Part shown: in pieces, positions 3,430 through 26,317 of the stretch
How the letters are laid out: each line of letters starts with the position of its first letter
Position numbering within the stretch: the stretch's first letter is position 1
Origin: a virus
DNA: 40,122 bases
Direction: 5' to 3' (one strand)
IMG/VR virus record: IMGVR_UViG_3300049215_000769
Span: 1-40,122 of that record
Notes under the pieces: model-generated
What the model saw: only the letters and a program-made list of their open reading frames with translations
What the model was told of the DNA's origin: nothing
Database searches by the model: none
Position numbers and translations under genes: made by a program

Positions 3430-3708
3430 ATGGCTGCCCGCAAGAGGACATGGACCCCCGAAATAGTACGGCAACGAATCCGTACGAGTATGCTCGTGAA
3501 TCGCTTACAGAATCACGCGCTTGGTAAATGCGACATGACGCGCACCCAAGTCACTGCGGTCGAGATTCTGTTGCGTAAGTGCCTGCCCGATCTGAATCGC
3601 ACCGAACTGACGGGTGAAGGCGGTGGCCCCGTAGCGGCTGTCACCCTGAACACGGATGACCCGCAGGAGGCCATGCGTGAATACGCAAGGATGCTCAATG
3701 CTAGCTGA
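3430..3708 (+). CDS. Terminase small subunit-like protein
   Basis: The 92-residue product begins with a basic helical segment (KRTWTPEIVRQRIRTSMLVN), followed by a helix-turn-helix-like part (TRTQVTAVEILLRK, about 37-50). This is the pattern of small proteins that precede the large terminase in many phages and recognise the packaging site on DNA. It sits directly upstream of the large terminase and overlaps it by 11 bases. The start at 3430 is the only good ATG; it lacks a clear Shine-Dalgarno site and follows the TATAGT box closely. The role is inferred from position and the HTH-like pattern. Confidence 0.7.
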   Translation: MAARKRTWTPEIVRQRIRTSMLVNRLQNHALGKCDMTRTQVTAVEILLRKCLPDLNRTELTGEGGGPVAAVTLNTDDPQEAMREYARMLNAS

Positions 3709-4729
3709 GCCAGAAGAGATTCTGGCTGCCCAGCCGGAATACCAGCTGGACTTCAAGCAGCCATGTTATGGGCCGATTATCCAGAAGCGCGCCCAACGCT
3801 GGGCGTACTTAGCGAACAATCCGAAAGCCGTTCAAGCGGCCCTGCGCGTGTATGAGCGCGAGCCGTGGCGGTTCATTACCGATTGGGGCTGCACGCACGA
3901 ACCTCGAAATATCGAGGTCGGGCTGCCCGCCCATGTGCCCTTCATTCTCTGGCCGAAACAGGTCGAGTTCGTGCAATGGGTACTCGCACGCTGGCGCGGT
4001 CGCCAAAACGGTTTGGTCGAGAAATCGCGCGATTCTGGAGTGACGTGGCTCGCCGTGGCGGTGGCCTGCGCGTTGTGCATGCTCCATCCCGGTATCGTCA
4101 TAGGCTTCGGATCGCGCAAAAAAGAATACCTTGAGAAGGGTGCCCCCAAAGGCATCATGGAAAAGGTTCGTCAGTACATGCGCATGATCCCCCCGGCTTT
4201 TCGCGGGGAGGCCTGGAGCGAAGATCAGCACATCATGAGCATGAGGGCGATGTTCCCCACGACAGGGTCGTATATCACCTGTGAGTGCGGAGACGACATC
4301 GGTCGCGGGGATCGCACGTCCATCTATTTCGTGGATGAGGCCGCGCACTTGGAGCATCCGGTGACAGTCGATCAGGCGCTCAGCCAGACGACCAATTGTC
4401 AGATCGATATCTCCACACCCTTTGGGACCGCCAACACCTTCGCCATCAAACGTTATTCCGGCAAGGTGTCGGTGTTCACGTTCCATTGGCGTGATGATCC
4501 GCGCAAGGGGGAGGAGTGGTATGCGGAGCAGCTGAGCAAGATTGTCGATCCCGTCACGGTCGCGCAAGAAATCGACATCAGCTACACCGCCAGCGTTGAG
4601 GGGCATCATCATTCCGAGCGAGCATTTCGAGGCGTGCGTGGATGCACACCTGAAACTGCCCCAGCTATTCAAGGACGGAGGAGTCAGATGCGGGGCGCTG
4701 GACATTGCCGATCTAGGGAAAAATCGTAA
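3698..4729 (+). CDS. Terminase large subunit, ATPase half (frameshifted)
   Basis: This is the motor ATPase domain that pumps DNA into the prohead. From ATG 3698, residues 108-117 (EKSRDSGVTW) are the adenine-binding/Walker A region, 208-214 (SIYFVDE) Walker B with the catalytic Glu, and STPFG (239-243) the coupling motif. Homology runs to about residue 302 and then stops at the GGGG tract 4600-4603. Beyond that the frame encodes an unrelated tail ending at 4729. Reading three G instead of four would restore the normal join to the nuclease half at 4605-5363, giving about 554 residues. The start overlaps the small subunit gene; AAGG at 3687-3690 is a fair ribosome site. Confidence 0.88.
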   Translation: MLAEPEEILAAQPEYQLDFKQPCYGPIIQKRAQRWAYLANNPKAVQAALRVYEREPWRFITDWGCTHEPRNIEVGLPAHVPFILWPKQVEFVQWVLARWRGRQNGLVEKSRDSGVTWLAVAVACALCMLHPGIVIGFGSRKKEYLEKGAPKGIMEKVRQYMRMIPPAFRGEAWSEDQHIMSMRAMFPTTGSYITCECGDDIGRGDRTSIYFVDEAAHLEHPVTVDQALSQTTNCQIDISTPFGTANTFAIKRYSGKVSVFTFHWRDDPRKGEEWYAEQLSKIVDPVTVAQEIDISYTASVEGHHHSERAFRGVRGCTPETAPAIQGRRSQMRGAGHCRSREKS

Positions 4730-5363
4730 TGCGTTCGCCGCGCGGCATGGCAATATCGTGCATGAGGGATTGACGTGGAGCGGGCAAGGGTCTGGTCTTG
4801 AGGAAACCATAGAGAAGACCTTCACGCTGTGTGACCAGCATAAGCTGGATGGCTTCTACTACGATGCAGACGGGATAGGCGGCCAGGCGCGGGATGATGC
4901 TCGCCGCGCCAATGAGCGCCGAGCGAGCAAGCGCTACAAAACTCTGCGGGCTGATCCGTTTCGTGGGTCCGCGAAGGTCTTCGACCCAGAGCGCAAGGCG
5001 CCCGGCACCGACATCCTCAATGAGGACCGTTATCAGAACGCCAAGGCGCAAGCCTGGGACTATCTGTCTCTGCGATGTCGAAATACCTACTTGGCCGTGA
5101 ATGGCAAGCCCTACGACCCGGATTACCTCATCAGCTTCTCATCGGCCATTAAGGAGCTGGCGCTGCTGCGCAGCCAAATATCACAGCCGCAATGGAAGAT
5201 TGCAACGACCGGCAAACTCGTGGTGGACAAGCTGGCGGACGGAGCACCGTCGCCGGACCTGGCCGACGCGGTGATGATCCTGATGGCGCCCAAGCGCCAG
5301 CCGATGAAGATCAACCCCGCGCTGCTACGGGAAACCAATAACCCGTATGCACCCGCCGCATGA
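4542..5363 (+). CDS. Terminase large subunit, nuclease half (frameshifted continuation)
   Basis: Carries the RNase H-like headful/cos nuclease that cuts concatemers. True homology begins at about 4602 (GIIIPSEHF), so the open frame from TTG 4542 includes about 20 non-native codons. The three metal-binding acidic positions are visible in ALDIADLG, GFYYDADGIGG and SPDLADAVMIL. The half is intact to its stop, which overlaps the next ATG by 4 bases. No good independent ribosome site precedes it, so without frame correction or +1 frameshifting it may not be made. This could be a real mutation, a sequence error, or an unusual split terminase. Confidence 0.85.
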   Translation: MSIPSRSRKKSTSATPPALRGIIIPSEHFEACVDAHLKLPQLFKDGGVRCGALDIADLGKNRNAFAARHGNIVHEGLTWSGQGSGLEETIEKTFTLCDQHKLDGFYYDADGIGGQARDDARRANERRASKRYKTLRADPFRGSAKVFDPERKAPGTDILNEDRYQNAKAQAWDYLSLRCRNTYLAVNGKPYDPDYLISFSSAIKELALLRSQISQPQWKIATTGKLVVDKLADGAPSPDLADAVMILMAPKRQPMKINPALLRETNNPYAPAA

Positions 5364-14576: not shown

Positions 14577-15102
14577 CGCTGTCCGAAGCGCCATCCCGGG
14601 CATCAATCCGGATGTGCAGGCGCTCTATCTCGCCTCGCGTGGGTTTGCGCTCAGCGCGACCACCGGCGTGTCTACGCCGGTCTATGCGCCGCCCTATTGG
14701 GTGACGGTGCAGGTGCAGCCCCCGTCGGGTCGCGACCTTCAGCACATCAACATGCTGAACCTGCAGGGTGTGGTCCGCACGATCTACATGTACGGCAACC
14801 CTCAGGCGATCAATCGCGTCAGGGCCGGCGGTGCGGATCTGATCATGATGCCGCAGTGGCAGCCGCATGTGACCGTCGACAACCGCGGCGGCACGGTCAC
14901 CGACAACCTCACCAATCCGATTCTCGGCGCGTTCCCGGTGGACAACTGGATCGTGTCCGCAGTGGACGAGTGGTACGACATCGAAGGTCTGGGCTGGACG
15001 AAGCTCTACGTCACGCTCCAGACCGATGGCCCCTACATCGTGTTCGACAGCAACCGGCTGCCGGTCCTCGACAGCAACGGCTCTCTGGTGACCTCGCAAT
15101 GA
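14557..15102 (+). CDS. Neck / tail-completion structural protein
   Basis: The 181-residue protein starts MALNLHNAVRSAIPGINPDV, followed by a TYAPP-like turn and VTVQVQPPSGRDLQHINMLNLQGVVRTIYMYG, then DLIMMPQW and a C-terminal KLYVTLQ. This layout is typical of small neck proteins next to gp10-like genes. ATG 14557 is preferred over 14545 because homologous N-termini begin with M-(A)-L-N-L-H. It is the last normal virion gene before the signal-peptide cassette, and its stop overlaps the ATG of the first cassette gene. Confidence 0.65.
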   Translation: MALNLHNAVRSAIPGINPDVQALYLASRGFALSATTGVSTPVYAPPYWVTVQVQPPSGRDLQHINMLNLQGVVRTIYMYGNPQAINRVRAGGADLIMMPQWQPHVTVDNRGGTVTDNLTNPILGAFPVDNWIVSAVDEWYDIEGLGWTKLYVTLQTDGPYIVFDSNRLPVLDSNGSLVTSQ

Positions 15103-17015
15103 AGAAGCTACTCATACTGCTGGCGTTCCTCATTCCTGGCGTGCAGGCCGCGGAGGTCGGCGGCTACGGGAATGCCACCACCCCACTCTCGGGCACCGAG
15201 CGATTGCTGGCCGACCAGAACATGGTCACGGTCAACATCACCCCCGCACAGATCGCGAGCTACATCGCCTCGGGCGGCTACATCTACCAGATGCTGCCCG
15301 CGCTGGTGAACGGCTATGTGCTCTCTAACAATGGCACGACGCTGCAGTGGGTGCCGAACAGCGGCGGGGGTGGCGGTGGGGGCACGGTCACGAGTGTGGG
15401 CCTCACGATGCCAGCCGGGCTGTCGGTGGCCAACTCTCCGGTCACGACCAACGGCACCATCAACGTGACCACGACGCTCAGTGGGCCGATCAAGGGGACC
15501 GGCTCAGGATTCTCGGCGGCCACCTATGCCGACATCGTAAACCTGTTCAGCGGCTGCACAGGCACGGAATACCTAGCGGCCAACGGAAACTGCTACGCGG
15601 CCAGCGGTTCGGGCACAGTCACCAGCGTCGGACTCACCGCGCCGTCGTGGTTGACCGTCAGCGGCTCGCCAGTTACGACCTCGGGCACACTGGGGCTGGC
15701 AGCGGCTTCTCAGTCCGCCAATACCTTCCTGGCCTCCCCCAGCGGAGCCTCGGGAGCGCCCTCATTCCGCGCAATTGTCAGCGCGGACCTGCCCGCCACG
15801 ATTGCGGCGAATACCACCGGCAATGCGGCCACTGCGACGGCGCTGGCCACTTCGCCCACCCAGTGCGGCACGGGACAGTTCGCCACCGGTGTCGCTGCGT
15901 CGGGCAACGCCAACTGCGGCACGCACCAGGTCAACGGTGTGGCGCTCACTGGGACCACGCCGATCAACTTCATCAACAGCGCCGCGACCAATGGTCTGAC
16001 GCTGACCTTCACCAATACGACTGCGGGGGTCATTCAGCTTGGGCTCTCCGGCACGCTCGCCAACGCAGGACTTACCAACTCCAGCGTGACGCTCAACGGG
16101 CAGGCGATCTCTCTCGGCTCCTCTGGCAACGTGAACAACGGGGCCGCGCAGTACTCGATCGCCCTGAATGGCGCAGCGGGTGCCGCGATCGCTGGCATCA
16201 CGCTGCCGGGTGCGACCGGCATTTACTGCATCGATTACACCAGCCTGACCGCGAACCCCACTCTGACGAGCTGCCCAGCGGCGCCCACCCTGCAGACCAA
16301 CGGCACCAACAACTCCAGCCAGACCACGCTGAACATCCAGAGTGGCACGGGAATCAGCGTGTCGAATCCCTCGGGAGGAAACGTCACGGTCAACCAGACG
16401 CAGGCGATCAACGCGCAGACTGGCACGACCTACACGGTTGCTTCGACCGATGCGTCCAAGTTCATCACCTTCAACAATGCGAGCGCGGTGGCGGTCACGC
16501 TACCCCAAGCCACCGGCAGCTTCGGTGCTGGGTTCGCCATCACGGTGCAGAACCTCGGTGCCGGCACGGTCACGATCACGCCGACCACGAGCACGATCAA
16601 CGGTCAAGCGAGCCTGACTATTCCGACCGGTTACGGCTGCGGCATTGTCAGCGACGGCACGAACTACCAGCTCGGCAACTGCCCGGCCGTGCGGGACATG
16701 CCGATCACCCTTTCAGCTGGCGCCACGGTCACGCCGAACTGCTCAGCGAATAACAACGTCGTGACGATCACGGCGAACGTCACCTTCGCAGTGCCGGCGA
16801 ATTGCACTCCCTTCCAGGGACAGCGGATCTTCTTCGATGTCATCGCCACTTCGGCCTACACGTACACCTTTACCGGTTACTTGGCCGCTGGAAGCAGCGT
16901 GGCCTACCCCACGGCGCACTCCGCGACCGGCGCGGATCACATGGAGCTGATCTACGAAGGAACAGCGGCCACCAAGGGATGGGTGCTTGATGCGATCAAT
17001 CCAGGTATCCCGTAA
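15099..17015 (+). CDS. Secreted fibre-like beta protein with Sec signal peptide
   Basis: A 638-residue protein that begins with a clear signal peptide (MKKLLILLAFLIPGVQA, cleavage after residue 17) and continues with modules typical of phage tail fibres: two copies of G-T-V-T-S-V-G-L (95-102, 172-179) each followed by S-P-V-T-T, a LFSGCTGTEYLAANGNC module (149-165), an N-T-F-L-A-S-P-S-G segment and a long beta region with TDASKFITFNNASAVAVTLP. No enzymatic motif is seen. The start overlaps the neck gene by 4 bases; an open frame upstream to 14697 lies inside that gene and was rejected. Export is unexpected for a virion protein. It could be an exported adhesin or receptor decoy. Confidence 0.72.
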   Translation: MKKLLILLAFLIPGVQAAEVGGYGNATTPLSGTERLLADQNMVTVNITPAQIASYIASGGYIYQMLPALVNGYVLSNNGTTLQWVPNSGGGGGGGTVTSVGLTMPAGLSVANSPVTTNGTINVTTTLSGPIKGTGSGFSAATYADIVNLFSGCTGTEYLAANGNCYAASGSGTVTSVGLTAPSWLTVSGSPVTTSGTLGLAAASQSANTFLASPSGASGAPSFRAIVSADLPATIAANTTGNAATATALATSPTQCGTGQFATGVAASGNANCGTHQVNGVALTGTTPINFINSAATNGLTLTFTNTTAGVIQLGLSGTLANAGLTNSSVTLNGQAISLGSSGNVNNGAAQYSIALNGAAGAAIAGITLPGATGIYCIDYTSLTANPTLTSCPAAPTLQTNGTNNSSQTTLNIQSGTGISVSNPSGGNVTVNQTQAINAQTGTTYTVASTDASKFITFNNASAVAVTLPQATGSFGAGFAITVQNLGAGTVTITPTTSTINGQASLTIPTGYGCGIVSDGTNYQLGNCPAVRDMPITLSAGATVTPNCSANNNVVTITANVTFAVPANCTPFQGQRIFFDVIATSAYTYTFTGYLAAGSSVAYPTAHSATGADHMELIYEGTAATKGWVLDAINPGIP

Positions 17016-17042
17016 TGCCTACCTTCTCGTGGATCAGATCGC

Positions 17043-18680
17043 ATGCGTAAGCTGACGACGGCCATACTCGGGGCGGTCCTCATCGCGACCTGCAGCGGCT
17101 TTCTGTCACTCGGCGGCAGTGCCGCCACGAGCAGCGGCAATCCGTTCAATCTGCCGCGTGTACTGGCGACCGATAACATCCTGACGTTCCTCGGCAGCTT
17201 CAAGGCGCCGACCAGCTTCGTCTATCGCGGCGGCGCGATGTCGGTCAACGGCTCGACCATGTATCTGTCGGGCCTGTACTACTACAACAGCGGTTCCAGC
17301 TACGTGAACGGCATTGGCTCGTTCACCATCCCTACGTTGACCGGCGCACCGGCCCTGGACGGTTCCAACGGAACGGCCACAGCCCTCGTTGCGCCCACTA
17401 CCCTTGTGGACGGCTCCGGCAATCCCATCCTCGACTGCGGGCAGGGCGCGAGCTACGGCAACAATACCTATTGCGTCTTTACCGGCTCGCTGGTGTATGG
17501 CGGCAAGCTCTACATGACTGTTGGCCCCTACTACGATCAGTCCACGAGCGCACTGCCGGGATTCTTGGTATCGACTGATACTGGCATCAGCACTTGGGGC
17601 CTCGTCAACGCGGCCAGTGGCGCAGGCTGTCTGAGCAGCAGCCCTGGATGCACTCAACGCTATTTCGCTGGCCCTCTTGGAGTGCTGCCGAGCATCTGGC
17701 AGCCTTACTTTGGCGGTCCTTGCTACGAGTCGGCTGGCCCCGGTGGGCTCTCCAACAATACGAGAAGCCCCAACGGATTTAGCCTCGCGACCTTCAATTG
17801 CGCTGCTTACAACGCCGCTGGCGGGTCGATCTCGGTCCATGAGGCGCTGGACTATTACTACCAGACCGTCAGCCGCAACCCGTCTCAGTACCAATTGGCT
17901 TATCGCTCATTCTCTGGGCCATTCCCGACGGGCGGCAGCGGTGTCTCCTACACGCTGACCTCGCAGCCCACAACGGCAACAACATCCGTCACGCTTACCG
18001 CTGCCTTCAGCAGCAATACGGCCGCCACCATTGGCCCGTTTCAGATCACCTTCAATATCACGGGCGGCGGTACAGCGACGCGCATCGTTCACCTGACGAA
18101 CGGCATGACCGCTGTTCCTGATGGGACGACGACTTGCTATTACGGCGTGACGGGCTGCGTCTCTTTCCCAGCCTTGACTGAGTGCAATCCAAGCTGCACT
18201 ACGGCCGTGACGATTGCCCCGATGGGGGATAACTACTACAGCGAATACGAGGGTGGCGACCTCGGATACGGCTTCTTCGTTCCAGGCAGCCGCAGCTTCC
18301 TGGTCATCAACATCCATCAATATGGGCCGTCAGGCGCGGCAGGCAGCGGATGCGATAAAGGGGCCAGCGGTAGCAACGACACGCCGTTATCGCCGGACAC
18401 GAGGCACTATCGGCGCCTGCAAATCAGCGCTTATGACGCGAATGACCTCTATGCGGGCTATAACGGCTCGCAGGCGGTGTACGTAGCGGCTCCCTATGCG
18501 GAGTGGGACTTCCCAAACTGGCAAGCTAACTGGGGCGGCACGACCAACTGCATCAATGGTGGCCCTCCCGGTAATTTCTACTTCGATCCGAACACCAGCA
18601 TCCTCTACGGAACATTTTCGAGCAATCAAGATGGCTCGGGCCACATGATCGTCAACGAGTGGCAGGTATCCGGCACATGA
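17043..18680 (+). CDS. Secreted beta-rich protein with signal peptide, unknown family
   Basis: A 545-residue protein with a signal peptide (MRKLTTAILGAVLIATC, cleavage near residue 28). After that it is Gly/Ser/Tyr-rich beta sequence with repeated short blocks (ILTFLGSFKAP, GAMSVNGSTMYLSGL, GSFTIPTL) that suggest a beta-propeller or beta-sandwich. Residues about 300-365 form an Ig-like insert (TSQPTTATTSVTLTAAFSS). Several Cys pairs (for example TECNPSC) fit an oxidising extracytoplasmic location. It follows the fibre-like gene by 27 bases; its stop overlaps a 32-codon remnant. No catalytic residues are recognised. Confidence 0.65.
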   Translation: MRKLTTAILGAVLIATCSGFLSLGGSAATSSGNPFNLPRVLATDNILTFLGSFKAPTSFVYRGGAMSVNGSTMYLSGLYYYNSGSSYVNGIGSFTIPTLTGAPALDGSNGTATALVAPTTLVDGSGNPILDCGQGASYGNNTYCVFTGSLVYGGKLYMTVGPYYDQSTSALPGFLVSTDTGISTWGLVNAASGAGCLSSSPGCTQRYFAGPLGVLPSIWQPYFGGPCYESAGPGGLSNNTRSPNGFSLATFNCAAYNAAGGSISVHEALDYYYQTVSRNPSQYQLAYRSFSGPFPTGGSGVSYTLTSQPTTATTSVTLTAAFSSNTAATIGPFQITFNITGGGTATRIVHLTNGMTAVPDGTTTCYYGVTGCVSFPALTECNPSCTTAVTIAPMGDNYYSEYEGGDLGYGFFVPGSRSFLVINIHQYGPSGAAGSGCDKGASGSNDTPLSPDTRHYRRLQISAYDANDLYAGYNGSQAVYVAAPYAEWDFPNWQANWGGTTNCINGGPPGNFYFDPNTSILYGTFSSNQDGSGHMIVNEWQVSGT

Positions 18681-18775
18681 GGAAGTTACTGCTGCTGATT
18701 GCTTGCCTTGGATTCTCCGTCAATGCTACGGCAGCTGCGAGACAGGTGATTATCGGAGTGTGGCAGATATCATGA
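18677..18775 (+). pseudogene. Signal-peptide-only remnant (32 codons)
   Basis: ATG 18677 overlaps the previous stop (ATGA) and encodes MRKLLLLIACLGFSVNATAA, a complete signal peptide. After it come only 12 more residues before TGA, which again overlaps the ATG of the next gene. It looks like the 5' end of a cassette gene whose body was lost by deletion. It may still serve as a coupling leader or a tiny exported peptide. Confidence 0.5.
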
Positions 18776-19617
18776 AGTATCTTTTAATTACCTTACTGCT
18801 TCTTTGCCCGTTGTTTGCGCGAGCAGCACCAGCACTGCTAGGAGTAGCGAAAAATCGCGTAGTCGGGACCACCAGCAACCCGGTCAACTATACGCCAAGC
18901 TCCGGCAGTACCCTCATTGTTTGGTTCAATGCTGCGACAGCGGAAACACTTAGCATCTCTGATACCCAAGGCAATACGTGGAACGTCGCGCATGCCTACG
19001 CGGACGGCGGCACTGGTGCGTATCTGGCGGTTTATTACGCACAGGGCGTTACTAACACAGCCGATACGGTCACGATCTCATACGGGACCGCTGCCGCTAG
19101 CGTGATCTATTTGGCTGATTACAACGGCGTGGGCAGCTTCGACAAGGTTTCCACCGTGGCAAGCGGCAATAGCGCTAGCCCGGCTACGTCTGCGGTGACA
19201 CCGGCACAATCGGGAGAACTGGCACTCGCACTCATTGGGACCAATGCGTCAGCCATCGTCACGTTCTCCAGTTGGACCGGCGGCTTTAACCAGGAAGATG
19301 CCTATACGGCCAGCGTGCCATCTGGAGTGTGGGCGGATCAAGTGCTCGCTGGGACCGGCAGCGTGAGCGGGGGCGCCACGATCAGCGCTTCGATTCGTTG
19401 GTCAGCGTTGACTGTGCTGTTTGAGGCGAGCGGCGCGCCAGCCGGCAATGCCTCCAATTTCTTTATGGTTGGCTCTACGATGGGCGCCGAGCAAATACAT
19501 AGCCTGCCCGAAAGCCTGAGCAGTCCTCATACGCTTCTATCTGAAATCCAGCGTTCTGCAGCACGGACACTAACTCATCGGAGAGTTGGCGTTTGCGAAG
19601 GATGTGCTCGTGGCTAG
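18772..19617 (+). CDS. Secreted beta-sandwich protein with signal peptide
   Basis: A 281-residue protein with a signal peptide (MKYLLITLLLLCPLFARA) and a mature domain of the pattern S-G-S-T-L-I-V-W...ISDTQGNTWNVAHAY...YLAVYYAQGVTN-ADTVTISYG...VIYLADYNGVGS-FD...ELALALIG. I recognise this as a common exported jelly-roll-like module, function unknown; the gene at 25484 encodes a divergent relative. Homology ends near LTVLFEASG (about residue 224). The last 40-50 residues are encoded opposite the 3' end of the FkbM gene, so the tail is probably not native. Base composition is less GC-rich than the flanks. Confidence 0.62.
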   Translation: MKYLLITLLLLCPLFARAAPALLGVAKNRVVGTTSNPVNYTPSSGSTLIVWFNAATAETLSISDTQGNTWNVAHAYADGGTGAYLAVYYAQGVTNTADTVTISYGTAAASVIYLADYNGVGSFDKVSTVASGNSASPATSAVTPAQSGELALALIGTNASAIVTFSSWTGGFNQEDAYTASVPSGVWADQVLAGTGSVSGGATISASIRWSALTVLFEASGAPAGNASNFFMVGSTMGAEQIHSLPESLSSPHTLLSEIQRSAARTLTHRRVGVCEGCARG

Positions 19618-19687
19618 GGCTCCGATAGTCCCAGTCAAGGATGGGAACGGAATACTCCATCACCACACGGTTGACCTTGCGCCAGAC
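19475..19687 (-). pseudogene. FkbM methyltransferase, C-terminal part beyond an in-frame amber stop
   Basis: Downstream of the TAG at 19688-19690, in the same frame, the minus strand keeps coding for a sensible C-terminus (VWRKVNRVVMEYS... then LVSVLQNAGFQIEAYED ...GYVFARR) that ends at TAG 19475-19477. FkbM proteins normally continue like this after K-I-D-C-E-G-A-E. The frame is intact, so only one codon separates it from the main part. It overlaps the 3' end of the + strand gene that stops at 19617. Confidence 0.6.
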
Positions 19688-20350
19688 CTAAATCGGCGCG
19701 GCAGGGATGAAGTCGAACTCGGCTCCCTCGCAGTCAATCTTCATCAATTCGCAGTGCTCCACTCGCGCCAAGAGATTGCTGAGAGTCATGGCCGGGACAT
19801 CCGTATAGCCGCGTCCAGCGTTGAAGCGCAAAGAGTGGTAACCGGTATCGCTGCCGGTGAACAGTCGGCACGTGCCATCGCTCGCAGCTACGGCAGCGCC
19901 GATGACTTCGGCGTCAATGCGATTGGCGGCGACGTTGCGGCGCAAGTAGCGGAGGTTGTCAGGGTGCGGTTCGACAGCGATCACTCGCGCACCGTAGCGC
20001 GCCGCAGCCAGTGTGAAACAACCCATATTCGCGCCGATGTCGATCACGATCTGGCCGGCAGAGGGGCGGTAGCCAGGACGGAAATACTCTTCCCGCTGCA
20101 GCACGTTCTCAATGAAGGCTTCGTCGGTGGAGCAGCGCCGAAAGCTGACGCGATATCCCCCGAGCTTCGCGGTGCGAGAAACGATTCCCGCGCGCTTGAG
20201 AATGCGATCCCAGCGCTGGCGCAGAACGTAAGGCATCCGGTGCTCCACGAGCAGTGCTCGGCACGCGCGAGTCAGCGCATTGCCGCTGGGTTTTTCAAGG
20301 ATGGGCGCGCGAAAGATGGTCGGTTCTGGAATGGCCATATCGTTGTACAT
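19688..20350 (-). CDS. FkbM-family SAM-dependent methyltransferase (amber-interrupted)
   Basis: FkbM-type enzymes O-methylate sugars or antibiotics using SAM. The open part has 220 residues: motif I VIDIGANMGCF (102-112), acidic residue of motif II in AVEPHPDNL (125-133), and LMKIDCEGAEF (202-212). It ends at TAG 19688-19690, but homologous sequence continues in frame to 19475 (see separate entry), so the full protein would be about 290 residues. It is the only sizeable minus-strand gene, placed between two sets of secreted-protein genes, which is typical of a cargo (moron) gene. ATG 20350 and ATG 20338 are both possible starts. Sugar methylation of host surface glycan is an inference. Confidence 0.75.
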   Translation of the reverse strand: MYNDMAIPEPTIFRAPILEKPSGNALTRACRALLVEHRMPYVLRQRWDRILKRAGIVSRTAKLGGYRVSFRRCSTDEAFIENVLQREEYFRPGYRPSAGQIVIDIGANMGCFTLAAARYGARVIAVEPHPDNLRYLRRNVAANRIDAEVIGAAVAASDGTCRLFTGSDTGYHSLRFNAGRGYTDVPAMTLSNLLARVEHCELMKIDCEGAEFDFIPAAPI

Positions 20351-20412
20351 AACCCCCCCGGCGGAAAGCTCGGCGAGCCAGCATACACCGCGCCGATATT
20401 TGGAGCGATCAG

Positions 20413-21543
20413 ATGAGCATTAAGAAATGGCTATCCCCGCTCCTGGTGCTGCTGGCGGCCGGCTGCGCCGCCATCCCCAACGGGCCGCCCCAGGCTCCCC
20501 ATCGGGTGCTCACGAGCACCGCGGACGGCGGGGTCACGAGCGTTCAGGACGTGGAGCAGAAGACGCACCTGATGCGCCTGGGCGGTACACCCCCGGCCCA
20601 GCAGGTCATCAATATCGGCACGGCCGCCAACAGCGGCAATGGCGACCCGATCCGAACGGCCTTCACCAAGGACAACACGAACACCACCGCGCTGTTCTCG
20701 ATGTTCGGCACGTCCTCGAACCTCTACAACAACGGCACGGCGCTCGCCACGGATATCGCGGGCCTGTTCACCGGTTGCGGACCCTCGACACCGGCTCTGG
20801 GCTACCAGGGTGCCTGCGTCTCGGGCGGCGGAGGAGGCGGGACGCCCGGCGGCTCGAACCTTCAGATCCAGTATAACAACGCGGGCTCCTTTGGCGGATA
20901 CACGCCAGCGGGCGCCATCGGCTACCTGGACTCGGGCACCGCCAACGCCCAGACCGGCACCACCTACACGCTGGTCTCGGGCGACGCCAACAGCGAAGTG
21001 ACCATGTCGAATGCGTCAGCGAACACGCTGACCATTCCGGCCAATGCCACCGTGGCCTTCGCGACCGGCACGATCATCACGGTGCAGGAGCTATCCACCG
21101 GCATCACCAGCATCGCGCCGGCGTCTGGCGTGACCATCGAGTCCCCGACCTACGGCGCTTCGACCTCTCAGCAGTATTCCCTCGGCGGCATCTACGGCCA
21201 GATCCAGCTGCAGAAGGTCGCGACCAACACCTGGAACGTGATCCTCTGGCAGCCGGGCAAGACCACCTACACGCTCAGCGGCACCTGTACGACCTCCGCC
21301 TCCACGGGCGGCAACACCGGCGGCCATATCACCATGAGCGGCACCGGCAGCTGCACACTGATTGTGACCCCTGGCGGCGGACTTCAGGCGCCGGACTACT
21401 GGGTGGGGCGCATGTCCGATACGACCCAGCCGACCATTCCAGGATGGGGTGAGACCTCCAGCAGCGCCAGCTCAGTGACCTTCACGGTACCGGCGGCCGT
21501 GGCGGCCAGTGACGTGCTGACGTTCACGGTGACGATGGAATGA
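20413..21543 (+). CDS. Fibre-like lipoprotein
   Basis: A 376-residue protein with a type II signal peptide (MSIKKWLSPLLVLLAAGC, lipobox LAAGC with Cys18). Ala at +2 predicts outer-membrane sorting. The mature part has phage-fibre modules: NIGTAANSGNGDPIRTAFTK (about 57-76), a DIAGLFTGCGPSTPALGYQGAC module matching that in the 15099 gene, a poly-Gly linker, then AQTGTTYTLVSGDANSEVTM, also shared with that gene. It is therefore a lipid-anchored relative of the first cassette protein. GGAG at 20401-20404 precedes the start. Its stop overlaps the glycoside hydrolase gene by 4 bases. Confidence 0.72.
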   Translation: MSIKKWLSPLLVLLAAGCAAIPNGPPQAPHRVLTSTADGGVTSVQDVEQKTHLMRLGGTPPAQQVINIGTAANSGNGDPIRTAFTKDNTNTTALFSMFGTSSNLYNNGTALATDIAGLFTGCGPSTPALGYQGACVSGGGGGGTPGGSNLQIQYNNAGSFGGYTPAGAIGYLDSGTANAQTGTTYTLVSGDANSEVTMSNASANTLTIPANATVAFATGTIITVQELSTGITSIAPASGVTIESPTYGASTSQQYSLGGIYGQIQLQKVATNTWNVILWQPGKTTYTLSGTCTTSASTGGNTGGHITMSGTGSCTLIVTPGGGLQAPDYWVGRMSDTTQPTIPGWGETSSSASSVTFTVPAAVAASDVLTFTVTME

Positions 21544-24500
21544 AGCGGCTCGCAGCGTTCCTGACGCTGCTGGCGGTCTGCGGGCTCGCCAGTGCGCAGT
21601 TCAATCCGGTCTCGCTGGGCCTGGGGTTCACTGCCACCGGCAGCACACCGCCCACGACGCTGCAGATCACCACCGCAAGCCTTTCTTCTGCCACCGTCGG
21701 GAGCGCCTACAGCCAGACGCTCACTGCGACTGGCGGCACGGGCACCGGTTACAGCTTCAGCGAGCTGGTCAACTACCCGAACACCGATCGGTGGGAATAC
21801 CTCACGCCCAGCGGCACGATCGGTGGCACCCCCGACAACGCCGAGACCGAGACGGTCACCTATCAGGTCACCGACTCGGGCGGGAACACCGCACAGAAGA
21901 CGTTCTCACTGCCGGTCTCGGCCTCGGGCGCGCTGACCATCGTCAGCCCGACGACGCTCCCGGCTGCCGTCAACAACGGCTATTACGCCTACAAGATCAT
22001 CATCAGCGGCGGCACGCCCCCCTATACGTGCAGCGGCACGAGCGCGCAGCCGCTCACGATTACGCCTGATTGCTGGATCGAAGACACCCCGACCGCGACG
22101 GGCACGGTCACGGTCGGTACGGTCACGGTCACCGATGCCGTGGATGCCACGGCGAGCTTCTCGCCATCCTTCACGGTCAACTCGACGCTCACGCTCGGTG
22201 GCATCGATCAGACTGTTGGGATCATCCGGCTGCCGCCGGCCTATGCCGGCCAGTATTACCAGTACCAGTTCCATGCCTACGGCGGCAGTGGCTCGGGATA
22301 CACCTACACAGCCATCAATGGCCTGCCGGCCTGGGCGGCTGTGTCCGCCTCCGGCCTGCTCTCTGGCACACCGACCTCCAGTGGCTCGATCGAGCCCACC
22401 ATCAAGGTCACCGACAGCAGCAGCAATACGGCCACCGAGCCCGCGCTGGTCAACGTCCTGAATGCCGCGGGCGTCAACCGCCCGAGTTACAACGCCTCGG
22501 TCAATAACGGCTTCTTCACGCTGAACGGTCGCATCTACGACCCGAACGGCAAGCCGTTTCTGATCCACGGCCTGGACCGCAACCACTTCGACAACGTCAG
22601 CTGGGCCGGCGCGGCCAGCATCAACTGGAACCCCGGCCCCTACCTGCTGACGTACAACCAACCGCTGTCCGTGGGCTCCTCAGTGCCCACCGCCGATATC
22701 TCAGCGGCAGCAGCCTGCACGCCCTGCAAGGGCTATGCGTTCTGGGCCACCTGGAGTTTCTTCGAGGGCGGCGCGGGCGGCACGCAGGGCAATTACACCG
22801 TCGGCCCTTCCAGTGTGCTCGGGCAGATATTCACCGCGGTCGGCAACAACAACCAGAAAGTCATCATCCAGTTCAACCCCGACCAGTTCAACGCTACCGG
22901 GCTGCAGGCGGTCGGGGACGGCTACACGCTGCCGCTGTACCTCACGCAGAACTCTTCCTTCGGCGCGGCCAACGTCGGCACCTCCGGGGTGAGCGTCAAC
23001 CCGTCTTATCCCTACGGCTGGTACGAGCAGCAGACCGGAGGCTACGGAGCCAACTGGGTAGGCAATACGAACGTCTATAACGCGTTATTGGCGACGTTCC
23101 AGGCCATCGCCTCCCAGTGGGATGGCGACCCGCGCTTTGAGGCCATCATCGTCGTCGCAGACGATGTGATGTACCCCTACAACGGCACCGGCCTTCAGGG
23201 CTCGACGTACTTCACGCAGCTCACCAACTTGATGCTCGCCATCAAGAGCTACTTCCATCACACAAACGTCGTGCTGCAGATCGCCGGGCAGCAGAGCACC
23301 GCCAGCCAGCAGATGGTGCAGACGCTGGTGCAGGCCGGCGTCATGATGGGCGCCTCCGATACAGCGGGCGCCACGGCCTGGAACGACACCTACACCAGCG
23401 TCACCTTTAGTTCGATCTCGGGCACGACCGGGACGCTCGCCAGCCCCCTGGCCGGATGGGAAGCGGGCAACACCTACACCTGCAAGCTCTCCACCGGCCA
23501 GACCGTCCAGATGACGGTCAGCACGAGTTCCCCGTATACCGCGGTCACATTCTCGCCAGCCGTGACCGGCAGCCCATCGGCCACGGCGACCATCAGTTAC
23601 GCCTGGCCGCAGCTCGGCCCGGAGATGATGGCCTGGGCGGGCATTCAGTCCGCATTCTCTTCCTGGGCACCTCCGTCGCCTGCGCTGCAGACCTACTCCA
23701 CCTCGTTCATGGAGGCGCAGGAAGGGGACTTCTCGAACACGGTCGGCTCACCTGCATTTCCCACGACCTTCACTGCAGCCGACATGGTGCAGGCGCTGAA
23801 TGACAACGTGACCGGCGGGGTCGGGTATCACGGCTCGCACTTCCTGATGAGCTACGGGAACTCGACCGCCTGGGCTGCGCGGCTGGCTTCCTACAACGGA
23901 ACCTCCGGCCTGACGAATACCGGCTACCCCTCGGTGTACGGCTCGGGAGGCGGCCAGAACGGCGCGCTCAGCGGCTCCAACGTCGTGCGGGAGTTCTCGG
24001 GCTTTGGCCAGTACAACCAGAGTGCCACGGCGATGGCCTCTCAGGTCACCAATCAGTACGCGAACAACGGCATCGTGCCGATCATCACGGTGTACGAGCT
24101 GCAGGAAGCCTTCACGGCCTCGGCCAGCGGCACCACGCTCACGGTCACCGCAGTCAACACGACGCCCTCGATGAGCAACGATGGGCTCATCGTCAAGAAC
24201 ATGCAGGTCATCGGCACCGGCATCCCGAACAACCCGCAGTGGACCGGCTCCATCTCCAGCACCACGATGAGCGTGACGGCCATCAGCTCCGGGCCCCTGT
24301 GCGTCGGCATGACGGCCTCGGGGTCCGGTTTCTCCACCACGATTACCGCAGTCCCCGGCGGCGGCGCATGCAGCAGCAGCACCGGCAGCTACACGGTCTC
24401 TTCCAGCCTGACGGAAAGTTCGCAGCCGATCTACGGCAACAACCCAGTCATCACGAATACAGGCGGGGGCACCGGCACCTATTCGCTCAACTACCAGCTC

Positions 24501-25487
24501 AGCGTGGGCTCGGAGTCGATGACGGGGACGTGTGTCACCAGCGGCAATAACGATCCGAATGCGGTCGTGGCCGCGACCAACATGCTGGTGTACGCGCTGA
24601 ATAATGGGCTGGGCTCGGTCGGCAGCAAGATCATGATCAACGTCGCCAACGAGTGGGGCGTGAGCCCGCTCTACAGCGGCCCGAACACGGAGGCGAACTG
24701 GGAAAGCTACTACGCGACCGCGATCTCGTCGCTCCGTTCGGCGGGCTTCTATGGCCCCGTGGTCGTGGACAGCCTGAATGATGCCGAGGATTTCACGGTG
24801 TTCTCGGGTGGCTATGCCCAGACCCTGATCAATTCGGACCCGTACAAGAACGTCGTGATCTCGATGCACCTGTACAACACGACGAACCTTGAAGGGCAGA
24901 TTACGAGCATCAGTCACGGGACCAATGCCGTCATCAAGTTCGCTTACAACGGCGCCACCAATCCGTGGAGCACGTTGACCAACTTTCTCAATCAGGTGTA
25001 TGTCACCGGCGTCTCGGGCATGACCCAGATCAACGGCCAGACCATCACGGTGACCTCGATCGGCAGCTGTTCGGCGGGCGCGTGCAGTCTGAACACGAAC
25101 CTCGATACCTCCTCCTATGGGACGTACACGAGCGGCGGTCAGGTGTTCGACGGCGCGCACTACCAGATCCGCTTCGCCTCGCTCGCCAATTATCAGGCGA
25201 TGGGCATTCCGATCATCGTGGGCGAGTACGGGCCTCCGGGATTGAACAACACCACGGCGGGTCTCTCGCAATTCGCTGCGGCTTCCATCTCCTACAACAT
25301 CGGGGAGATCGAATGGGCGTGGGATGACAGCAGCTGCTCGGGCTCCTGGTCGGGCTGGTTCAACGACACGCTCAGTTGCGGAAACTACTCCAAGCCCTCG
25401 GATCTCACCGAGCCCGGCATGGATGTGATCGACAATCCCCGAACGGGACGCAGCATGCTCGGTGTGCCTGTGCCGGTGTTCCATTGA
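21540..25487 (+). CDS. Secreted multidomain glycoside hydrolase (GH5-like) with Ig-like and FCCH-like inserts
   Basis: A 1315-residue exported protein. A signal peptide (MKRLAAFLTLLAVCGLASA) is followed by putative-Ig (He_PIG-like) repeats at about 38-310 (ATVGSAYSQTLTATGGTGTG; LPAWAAVSASGLLSGTPTSS). An N-G-R-I-Y-D-P-N-G-K-P-F segment (about 329-340) opens the enzyme part. Residues from about 810 resemble a GH5 mannanase/cellulase barrel: NVVREFSGFG, IVPIITVYELQ, INVANEWG with acid/base Glu1038, ISMHLYN, and IIVGEYGPPG with nucleophile Glu1229. Three beta inserts interrupt it: about 607-688, 860-993 and 1118-1200; the last resembles an E1-FCCH-like phage module. Residues 350-800 are not assigned. 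Likely degrades a surface or environmental polysaccharide. It is coupled at both ends to its neighbours. Confidence 0.78.
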   Translation: MKRLAAFLTLLAVCGLASAQFNPVSLGLGFTATGSTPPTTLQITTASLSSATVGSAYSQTLTATGGTGTGYSFSELVNYPNTDRWEYLTPSGTIGGTPDNAETETVTYQVTDSGGNTAQKTFSLPVSASGALTIVSPTTLPAAVNNGYYAYKIIISGGTPPYTCSGTSAQPLTITPDCWIEDTPTATGTVTVGTVTVTDAVDATASFSPSFTVNSTLTLGGIDQTVGIIRLPPAYAGQYYQYQFHAYGGSGSGYTYTAINGLPAWAAVSASGLLSGTPTSSGSIEPTIKVTDSSSNTATEPALVNVLNAAGVNRPSYNASVNNGFFTLNGRIYDPNGKPFLIHGLDRNHFDNVSWAGAASINWNPGPYLLTYNQPLSVGSSVPTADISAAAACTPCKGYAFWATWSFFEGGAGGTQGNYTVGPSSVLGQIFTAVGNNNQKVIIQFNPDQFNATGLQAVGDGYTLPLYLTQNSSFGAANVGTSGVSVNPSYPYGWYEQQTGGYGANWVGNTNVYNALLATFQAIASQWDGDPRFEAIIVVADDVMYPYNGTGLQGSTYFTQLTNLMLAIKSYFHHTNVVLQIAGQQSTASQQMVQTLVQAGVMMGASDTAGATAWNDTYTSVTFSSISGTTGTLASPLAGWEAGNTYTCKLSTGQTVQMTVSTSSPYTAVTFSPAVTGSPSATATISYAWPQLGPEMMAWAGIQSAFSSWAPPSPALQTYSTSFMEAQEGDFSNTVGSPAFPTTFTAADMVQALNDNVTGGVGYHGSHFLMSYGNSTAWAARLASYNGTSGLTNTGYPSVYGSGGGQNGALSGSNVVREFSGFGQYNQSATAMASQVTNQYANNGIVPIITVYELQEAFTASASGTTLTVTAVNTTPSMSNDGLIVKNMQVIGTGIPNNPQWTGSISSTTMSVTAISSGPLCVGMTASGSGFSTTITAVPGGGACSSSTGSYTVSSSLTESSQPIYGNNPVITNTGGGTGTYSLNYQLSVGSESMTGTCVTSGNNDPNAVVAATNMLVYALNNGLGSVGSKIMINVANEWGVSPLYSGPNTEANWESYYATAISSLRSAGFYGPVVVDSLNDAEDFTVFSGGYAQTLINSDPYKNVVISMHLYNTTNLEGQITSISHGTNAVIKFAYNGATNPWSTLTNFLNQVYVTGVSGMTQINGQTITVTSIGSCSAGACSLNTNLDTSSYGTYTSGGQVFDGAHYQIRFASLANYQAMGIPIIVGEYGPPGLNNTTAGLSQFAAASISYNIGEIEWAWDDSSCSGSWSGWFNDTLSCGNYSKPSDLTEPGMDVIDNPRTGRSMLGVPVPVFH

Positions 25488-26317
25488 AGCGGCTGATCGC
25501 AATCCTTGCGCTCCTGTGCGCGCCGGCCGCCTTCGCCTACAACAGCTCGGGTGTTGTGGCGCTGCCGAACTACACCACCACGACCTCCTACACCACCACC
25601 TGGAGCGTGAGCGCAGGGGATACGCTGCTGGTGCTTGAGAACACGATCGATAACAACAACAACACGAGCGCACTGCAATCCGTGTTCGACGGGCAGGGCA
25701 CCTACACCCAGGATGCCGTCTATGACTGGCAGACGCATTCCTGGTTCGGGGTGTGGCGGCTGAGCAATGCGAACGCCGGCACTCACGCGATCGATCTTCA
25801 GCCGATCAGCGGCGGCGATGACTACAGCACGATTGTGGTACTGGAGCTGCCGGGGACATGGTCCTTCGACACCACCTGGCTGTACTCAGGGAACAGCTAC
25901 GGGACCAGCATCTCCTTCAACGCCTCAGCCCCAACCGGATCGGGGAATCTCCAGATCGGCATGGCATCGATCAATCTCACGAGCGATCCACCCTCGCAAA
26001 CGCCCGTGGGATGGACCAGCCTCGGGCTCACCGGTAGCCAGTGGCCCTCCGGCGGCTGGGCCTATATCAGCTCCAATTCCGCGCAAACTCTGAACTGGGG
26101 CACGACCATGACCGCGGCTTCCTGGGGTGGCCTTGTCGTGGACTATCAGCAATCGGCCGTGGCCTGCTCACATAACTTCTGGTCCTCGACCGGCGGCTGG
26201 ACTCAGCCCAACGGCTCCAGCGGATCATTCTGGAATGTGGCTTCTGGCACCTTCTCCACGCCGAACTGCTCCACCGGTTCCTTCTGGCGGCAGGACGGCA
26301 ACAAGGCGGCGAACTGA
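25484..26317 (+). CDS. Secreted beta-sandwich protein with signal peptide (TTG start)
   Basis: A 277-residue protein starting at TTG 25484, which overlaps the hydrolase stop as TTGA, the same geometry as the ATGA overlaps of its neighbours. The signal peptide is MKRLIAILALLCAPAAFA. The mature domain (SAGDTLLVLENTIDNNN, AVYDWQTHSWFGVWRL, TIVVLELPGTWSFD, GNLQIGMASINL) follows the same strand order as the 18772 product, so the two are likely paralogues. The C-terminus is Trp/Ser-rich with three Cys. Its stop overlaps the ATG of the neck terminator, so the cassette is in one coupled chain with virion genes. Function unknown. Confidence 0.65.
   Translation: MKRLIAILALLCAPAAFAYNSSGVVALPNYTTTTSYTTTWSVSAGDTLLVLENTIDNNNNTSALQSVFDGQGTYTQDAVYDWQTHSWFGVWRLSNANAGTHAIDLQPISGGDDYSTIVVLELPGTWSFDTTWLYSGNSYGTSISFNASAPTGSGNLQIGMASINLTSDPPSQTPVGWTSLGLTGSQWPSGGWAYISSNSAQTLNWGTTMTAASWGGLVVDYQQSAVACSHNFWSSTGGWTQPNGSSGSFWNVASGTFSTPNCSTGSFWRQDGNKAAN

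Follow-up and report, generated by a model that had tools for sequence, protein, structure and literature searches.

The closest described systems to the locus presented here are bacterial beta-mannanases (1bqc from T. fusca, 3jug, 2whj and 1wky), which we take to be members of GH5_8. GH5 enzymes are expected to be retaining hydrolases acting by double displacement, and the beta-to-alpha loops of a TIM barrel lie on its catalytic face. A His on strand beta3 is usual in GH5 though not defining, and CAZy families are assigned by overall similarity. GH5 has also been found on a viral contig from peat, where the encoded enzyme was shown to be an endomannanase cutting both glucomannan and galactomannan (PMC6786970); we liken it to our enzyme by description, not by sequence. 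Domain insertion in TIM barrels, which have been named preferred hosts, is well documented, and deeply nested cases are known (PMC13114784). In the open-licence literature we came across no report of a TIM barrel that has another lodged within it, which counts as weak evidence. Here we describe an ORF (21540-25487) from a 40,122-base virus record in IMG/VR, the whole of which was analysed and is referred to as the window. Its product is probably an exported myophage enzyme that hydrolyses polysaccharides, with a GH5_8-like core split by three inserts. The full barrel fold, the Glu pair and the Arg, Asn, His, Tyr and Trp residues are shared with the GH5_8 beta-mannanases. However, the window enzyme differs from them in its three large insertions, in having Tyr852 in place of the beta3 His and in grouping with phage enzymes and one further locus (L024) in a separate clade.

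By their PHROGs matches, the genes of the window form a myophage morphogenesis run. Its first part, as far as ~15.1 kb, codes for the terminase, the portal, a head protease, the major head protein and head/neck proteins; further on come a tail terminator (26317) and sheath gene (26892) followed by baseplate and tail fibre genes. The terminase large subunit appears split across 3656-5363, with an ATPase part (3656-4729) and a nuclease part in another frame (4542-5363, 8e-22 to a large terminase); this looks like a frameshift, a split gene or a sequencing error. ORF 21540-25487 sits in a block of ~11 kb with the head completion gene on one side and the tail terminator gene on the other. All six consecutive forward ORFs of this block (15099-26317) have a signal-peptide-like start with a peak hydropathy of 2.5-2.85, whereas none of the ORFs listed elsewhere in the window came up to 2.3. 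These calls were made by eye and from hydropathy rather than with SignalP. On the opposite strand within the block lies an FkbM-type methyltransferase gene (19688-20350, PF05050 2.4e-15), possibly a polysaccharide-modifying cargo gene.

The partner immediately upstream (20413-21543, forward strand) starts with a signal peptide carrying a lipobox-like LLAAGC motif, after which comes a fibre-, connector- or T4 gp9/10-like domain (phrog_677, baseplate wedge tail fiber connector, 3e-4; phrog_8780, 3e-14). In two sister loci, L106 and L107, a homolog of this gene immediately precedes the GH5 gene (5.6e-24), and in L107 the GH5 gene occupies the same slot, after head genes. In L022 the gene upstream of the GH5 gene is related to window ORF 15099. 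The downstream partner (25487-26317, forward; possible TTG start at 25484) also has a signal peptide and a related gene in the L127 locus (3e-5). Another exported protein of the block (17043-18680, forward) is homologous to the C-terminal part of a GH5 fusion protein (L109, 7035-11126; 6e-81), downstream of which lie homologs of ORF 18772. By inspection L109 adjoins podovirus-like genes, which points to possible transfer of the cassette from one type of phage to another. Elsewhere, a GH5 protein (L128, 6555-11186) has a C-terminal region that looks like a beta-helix by inspection. No obvious signal peptide was seen at the starts of L105, L109 and L128, which suggests that some versions are virion proteins.

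As the preliminary description had proposed, 21540-25487 is a single coding frame, open for 1315 codons on the forward strand, as are all features given below. The 1315-residue product was likewise described as an exported protein with Ig-like repeats, which agrees with our analysis. Its first 19 residues (MKRLAAFLTLLAVCGLASA, 21540-21596) resemble a signal peptide, with a peak hydropathy of 2.67 and two N-terminal positive residues, again judged by inspection and not by SignalP. Ig-like (He_PIG) repeats follow at aa 40-310 (21657-22469; PF05345, 9.2e-11) and are homologous to aa 39-360 of the L107 protein. Searches of Pfam, PHROGs and NCBIfam with the intact ORF matched it to none of their GH families, and no close relative of the whole protein or of its largest insert, here domain A, was found in the viral, genome, phage and plasmid collections.

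The intact protein did yield piecewise phmmer matches to beta-mannanases in the PDB, at aa 1030-1132 (5e-8) and, weakly, at 324-349 and 1216-1264, and this pattern suggested a core broken by inserts. Once aa 357-795, 861-999 and 1118-1202 were removed, the remaining core matched PF00150 (3.1e-11; 43.7 bits against a cut-off of 23.5), which the intact ORF did not. It also aligned end to end with the T. fusca mannanase (residues 7-284 of the query to 3-259 of 1bqc, 5.8e-14). When the beta1 segment was removed as well, 1bqc scored 44.2 bits instead of 55.2 and the alignment stopped short of the barrel's N-terminal part. The core is made up of four stretches. These are the beta1 segment at aa 322-360 (22503-22619), which aligns with the N-terminus of GH5_8 mannanases; beta2 (NVVREF, with R817) to beta3 (PIITVYE) at aa 801-856 (23940-24107); beta4 to beta6 at aa 1000-1116 (24537-24887), which includes the region aligned to 1bqc at 1030-1132; and beta7-beta8 with a C-terminal extension at aa 1204-1315 (25149-25484).

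The NEWG motif at 1037 and the GEYG motif at 1228 place the candidate acid/base at Glu1038 (24651-24653, in ANEW) and the candidate nucleophile at Glu1229 (25224-25226), 191 residues apart, the pair and spacing originally proposed. We collected relatives from 80 bacterial and 29 viral loci and examined an alignment of 48 rows, window included. Both Glu residues are invariant in 48/48 rows, as are R817 (beta2), N1037 (beta4), H1110 and Y1112 (beta6) and W1259 (beta8), which complete the expected GH5 residue set. Such conservation is more than chance would be expected to give and, at 22-38% identity to the window, suggests selection for activity. The beta3 His is missing throughout the phage clade, and activity or specificity may therefore depart from that of the mannanases.

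An AlphaFold2 model of aa 300-1315, computed with the 47 other rows, gave a core pLDDT mostly of 80-97, including beta1 (80-92) and the beta4-beta6 stretch (mostly 87-97), with low confidence for domain A and for the module in the beta3 loop. The top 11 Foldseek matches were all beta-mannanases. With VIA-align the model (range 24-1015) superposed on 284 of the 294 residues of mannanase 3jug at 2.2 Å rmsd (Z 34.7), and ten mannanase entries scored Z 33-35, above other GH5 enzymes at ~24. The two Glu residues fall at the ends of beta4 and beta7. The preliminary description had asked for a model in which both faced one barrel site, and, to the extent that a model superposed on known mannanases can show it, this held. 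Its call of a GH5-like hydrolase is backed by the sequence matches, the alignment and the model, which together support a GH5 (beta/alpha)8 barrel closest to the GH5_8 beta-mannanases.

The largest interruption of this core falls directly after beta1. From G344 (beta1) to R817 (beta2) the window has 472 residues, compared with 21-28 in all 47 relatives, so that ~446 extra residues, a stretch larger than the GH5 core itself, separate beta1 (322-352) from beta2 (812-818). This stretch holds domain A (aa ~361-800, 22620-23939), which has its own start motif, INWNPGPYLL, and is absent from 47/47 aligned relatives. It is the most unusual part of the protein and had been missed: a beta stretch was correctly noticed at 607-688 but was placed as an insert in the barrel, when it lies within domain A. 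That stretch corresponds to a beta module, m1 (aa ~616-688, 23385-23603), which has no counterpart in homologs of domain A and was modelled as strands at a pLDDT under 45.

Relatives of domain A were sought by aligning it with bait sequences, and only those that the window's own sequence, L133 or L135 bore out were kept. The domain matched a phage protein (L133) in its C-terminal domain (blastp 1e-13, 25% identity over 263 columns) and, through it, a single-domain secreted protein of 392 aa (L135, 3743-4921; PF02449, 5e-7). The same N-terminal motif was found in that C-terminal domain and in single-domain secreted proteins (L135, L139-L146). A profile search of 398 genomes from one phylum gave nine with clear members (all at E 5e-14 or better), mostly of 320-390 aa with export-signal-like starts, and a profile of the family matched GH35 beta-galactosidases at 4e-5. 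Together with L147 these proteins make up an uncharacterised secreted GH42/GH35-like family, for the most part not covered by Pfam, that occurs in both phages and bacteria and has an NPGHY start motif and invariant W, E and D. Several members begin at the motif, which corresponds to aa 362-366 in the window, and the conserved residues (W405, E409 and D607 in window numbering) are retained in domain A. Domain A of the window differs from its family in being nested, in having m1 within it and in the loss of the common ET Glu. The latter, at the position of the beta4 catalytic Glu, is replaced by A540/D541, which makes activity of domain A doubtful. At the beta7 position the family mostly has VQ and the window AQE728, where the alignment is uncertain.

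Domain A itself did not match PF02449, as opposed to three of nine family members (best 3.4e-7), and when excised it gave no GH family in Pfam, NCBIfam or PHROGs. Modelled alone with three rows it reached a mean pLDDT of 42, with six beta-alpha units over aa 368-605. The VIA-align neighbours of this weak model were almost all TIM-barrel glycosidases (Z 10-12.6), and a BFVD fold search returned no match at E 0.001. At such a pLDDT, the case for a barrel in domain A rests on homology and a weak model. The best explanation remains a GH42/GH35-like secreted barrel-family domain that would have been inserted whole into the GH5 barrel.

Two further beta modules interrupt the core, close to where the preliminary description had set them (860-993 and ~1118-1200). 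The first, m2, fills the beta3-alpha3 loop (aa 857-999, 24108-24536), stretching the R817-N1037 spacing to 219 against a median of 76 in relatives; two other enzymes, L127 and L131, have a similar module in the same loop (blastp 1.4e-7 and 9e-6). The second, m3, lies between the Glu pair in the beta6-alpha6 loop (aa 1117-1203, 24888-25148), and its insertion after beta6 accounts for the 191-residue Glu spacing; the H1110-E1229 distance is also enlarged relative to relatives. When excised, m3 matched the E1-FCCH family PF16190 over 1153-1202 at 2e-6, though its 28.2 bits fall below the Pfam cut-off of 29.5, so we call it FCCH-like only. A comparable module occupies the same loop in seven sister phage enzymes from IMG/VR (L104-L109 and L128), which also share the Ig repeats, GH5 core and C-terminal extension, and some of which have a fibre-like upstream gene as in the window. 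None of them has domain A. Three (L108, L109, L128) differ in having another module near alpha4, and L109 and L128 have other C-terminal domains. The insertion of fibre modules into an enzyme core had been singled out as unusual; the insertion stands, but not its uniqueness, as it recurs in these sister enzymes. FCCH-like modules also occur within a baseplate wedge protein (L002, 6185-7624, phrog_6) and a phrog_2913 protein (L003, 7236-8369), and have the look of promiscuous decorations that move among phage proteins.

A tree built on 264 core columns placed the window in an eight-row viral clade (96/95), a sister clade outside the ordinary mannanases, and on a long branch (1.36). The other seven rows of the clade lack domain A. 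The simplest reading is that domain A was gained on the window's own branch.

The nested form was seen on one metagenomic contig only, with no close relative having domain A at this position, whereas beta-module insertions recur in the sister enzymes. An assembly chimera or recombination artefact could produce such a singleton. We consider this very unlikely, as the frame is open for 1315 codons, GC3 is 0.81-0.92 over all ORF segments, like that of the capsid genes, and no target-site or flanking repeat over 8 bp was found at the insertion site. Even less probable is a simple tandem of domain A and GH5, with aa 322-352 belonging to domain A. Both domains do resemble clan GH-A barrels, and domain A directly follows the beta1 segment. 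However, that segment runs straight into beta2 in 47/47 relatives, proteins of the domain A family have no such segment ahead of the NPGHY-like motif with which they begin (aa 362 in the window), and the AF2 GH5 core takes in aa 322-352.

What the nested protein does can also be read in other ways. A secreted auxiliary metabolic enzyme, absent from the particle, that helps the infected host to break down polymers from plants or soil is a less probable but serious alternative. It would fit the signal peptides on six consecutive ORFs and the peat virus endomannanase, interpreted as carbon degradation (PMC6786970), but not the position of the gene inside a head-tail morphogenesis run, the relatives without an obvious signal peptide (L105, L109, L128) or the connector-like domain in neighbour 20413, which is N-terminal. 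We think it unlikely that the GH5 barrel is dead or altered and now serves as a fibre-like binding scaffold, with the modules and domain A as receptor-binding decorations. The lost beta3 His of the phage clade, Ala540/Asp541 in place of the acid/base-like Glu of the domain A family, a catalytic face crowded by inserts and fibre-like neighbour genes all point that way, against which stand the catalytic Glu pair and the R, N, H, Y and W residues, invariant across 48 sequences. At the other extreme, and somewhat less probable again, both barrels could be active, one nested in the beta1-alpha1 loop of the other, so that two glycosidase sites would lie side by side with fibre modules clamping the substrate.

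We favour a polysaccharide hydrolase, likely exported or virion-associated. Computation shows the core fold, the conserved residues, the nesting and an N-terminus resembling an export signal, from which activity, substrate, the role of domain A and a place in the virion are inferred. Its retaining GH5 core would use Glu1038 as acid/base and Glu1229 as nucleophile. All three inserts follow beta strands (beta1, beta3 and beta6), which should place them on the catalytic face; most likely they would bind, gate or position a long polysaccharide around the cleft, while the Ig repeats could act as a spacer or attachment. The target is likely to be a mannan-like or other beta-linked extracellular polysaccharide, such as the slime or capsule of the host or a polymer in the environment, and by analogy with the peat viral endomannanase (PMC6786970) a mannan-type substrate is plausible. 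The interrupted core explains how such enzymes escape annotation. The active-site loops of a phage enzyme have here served as insertion sites for whole domains, one of them larger than the host core. A second enzyme-like domain and two fibre-type modules in these loops would represent an unusual phage route to a sugar-degrading protein.
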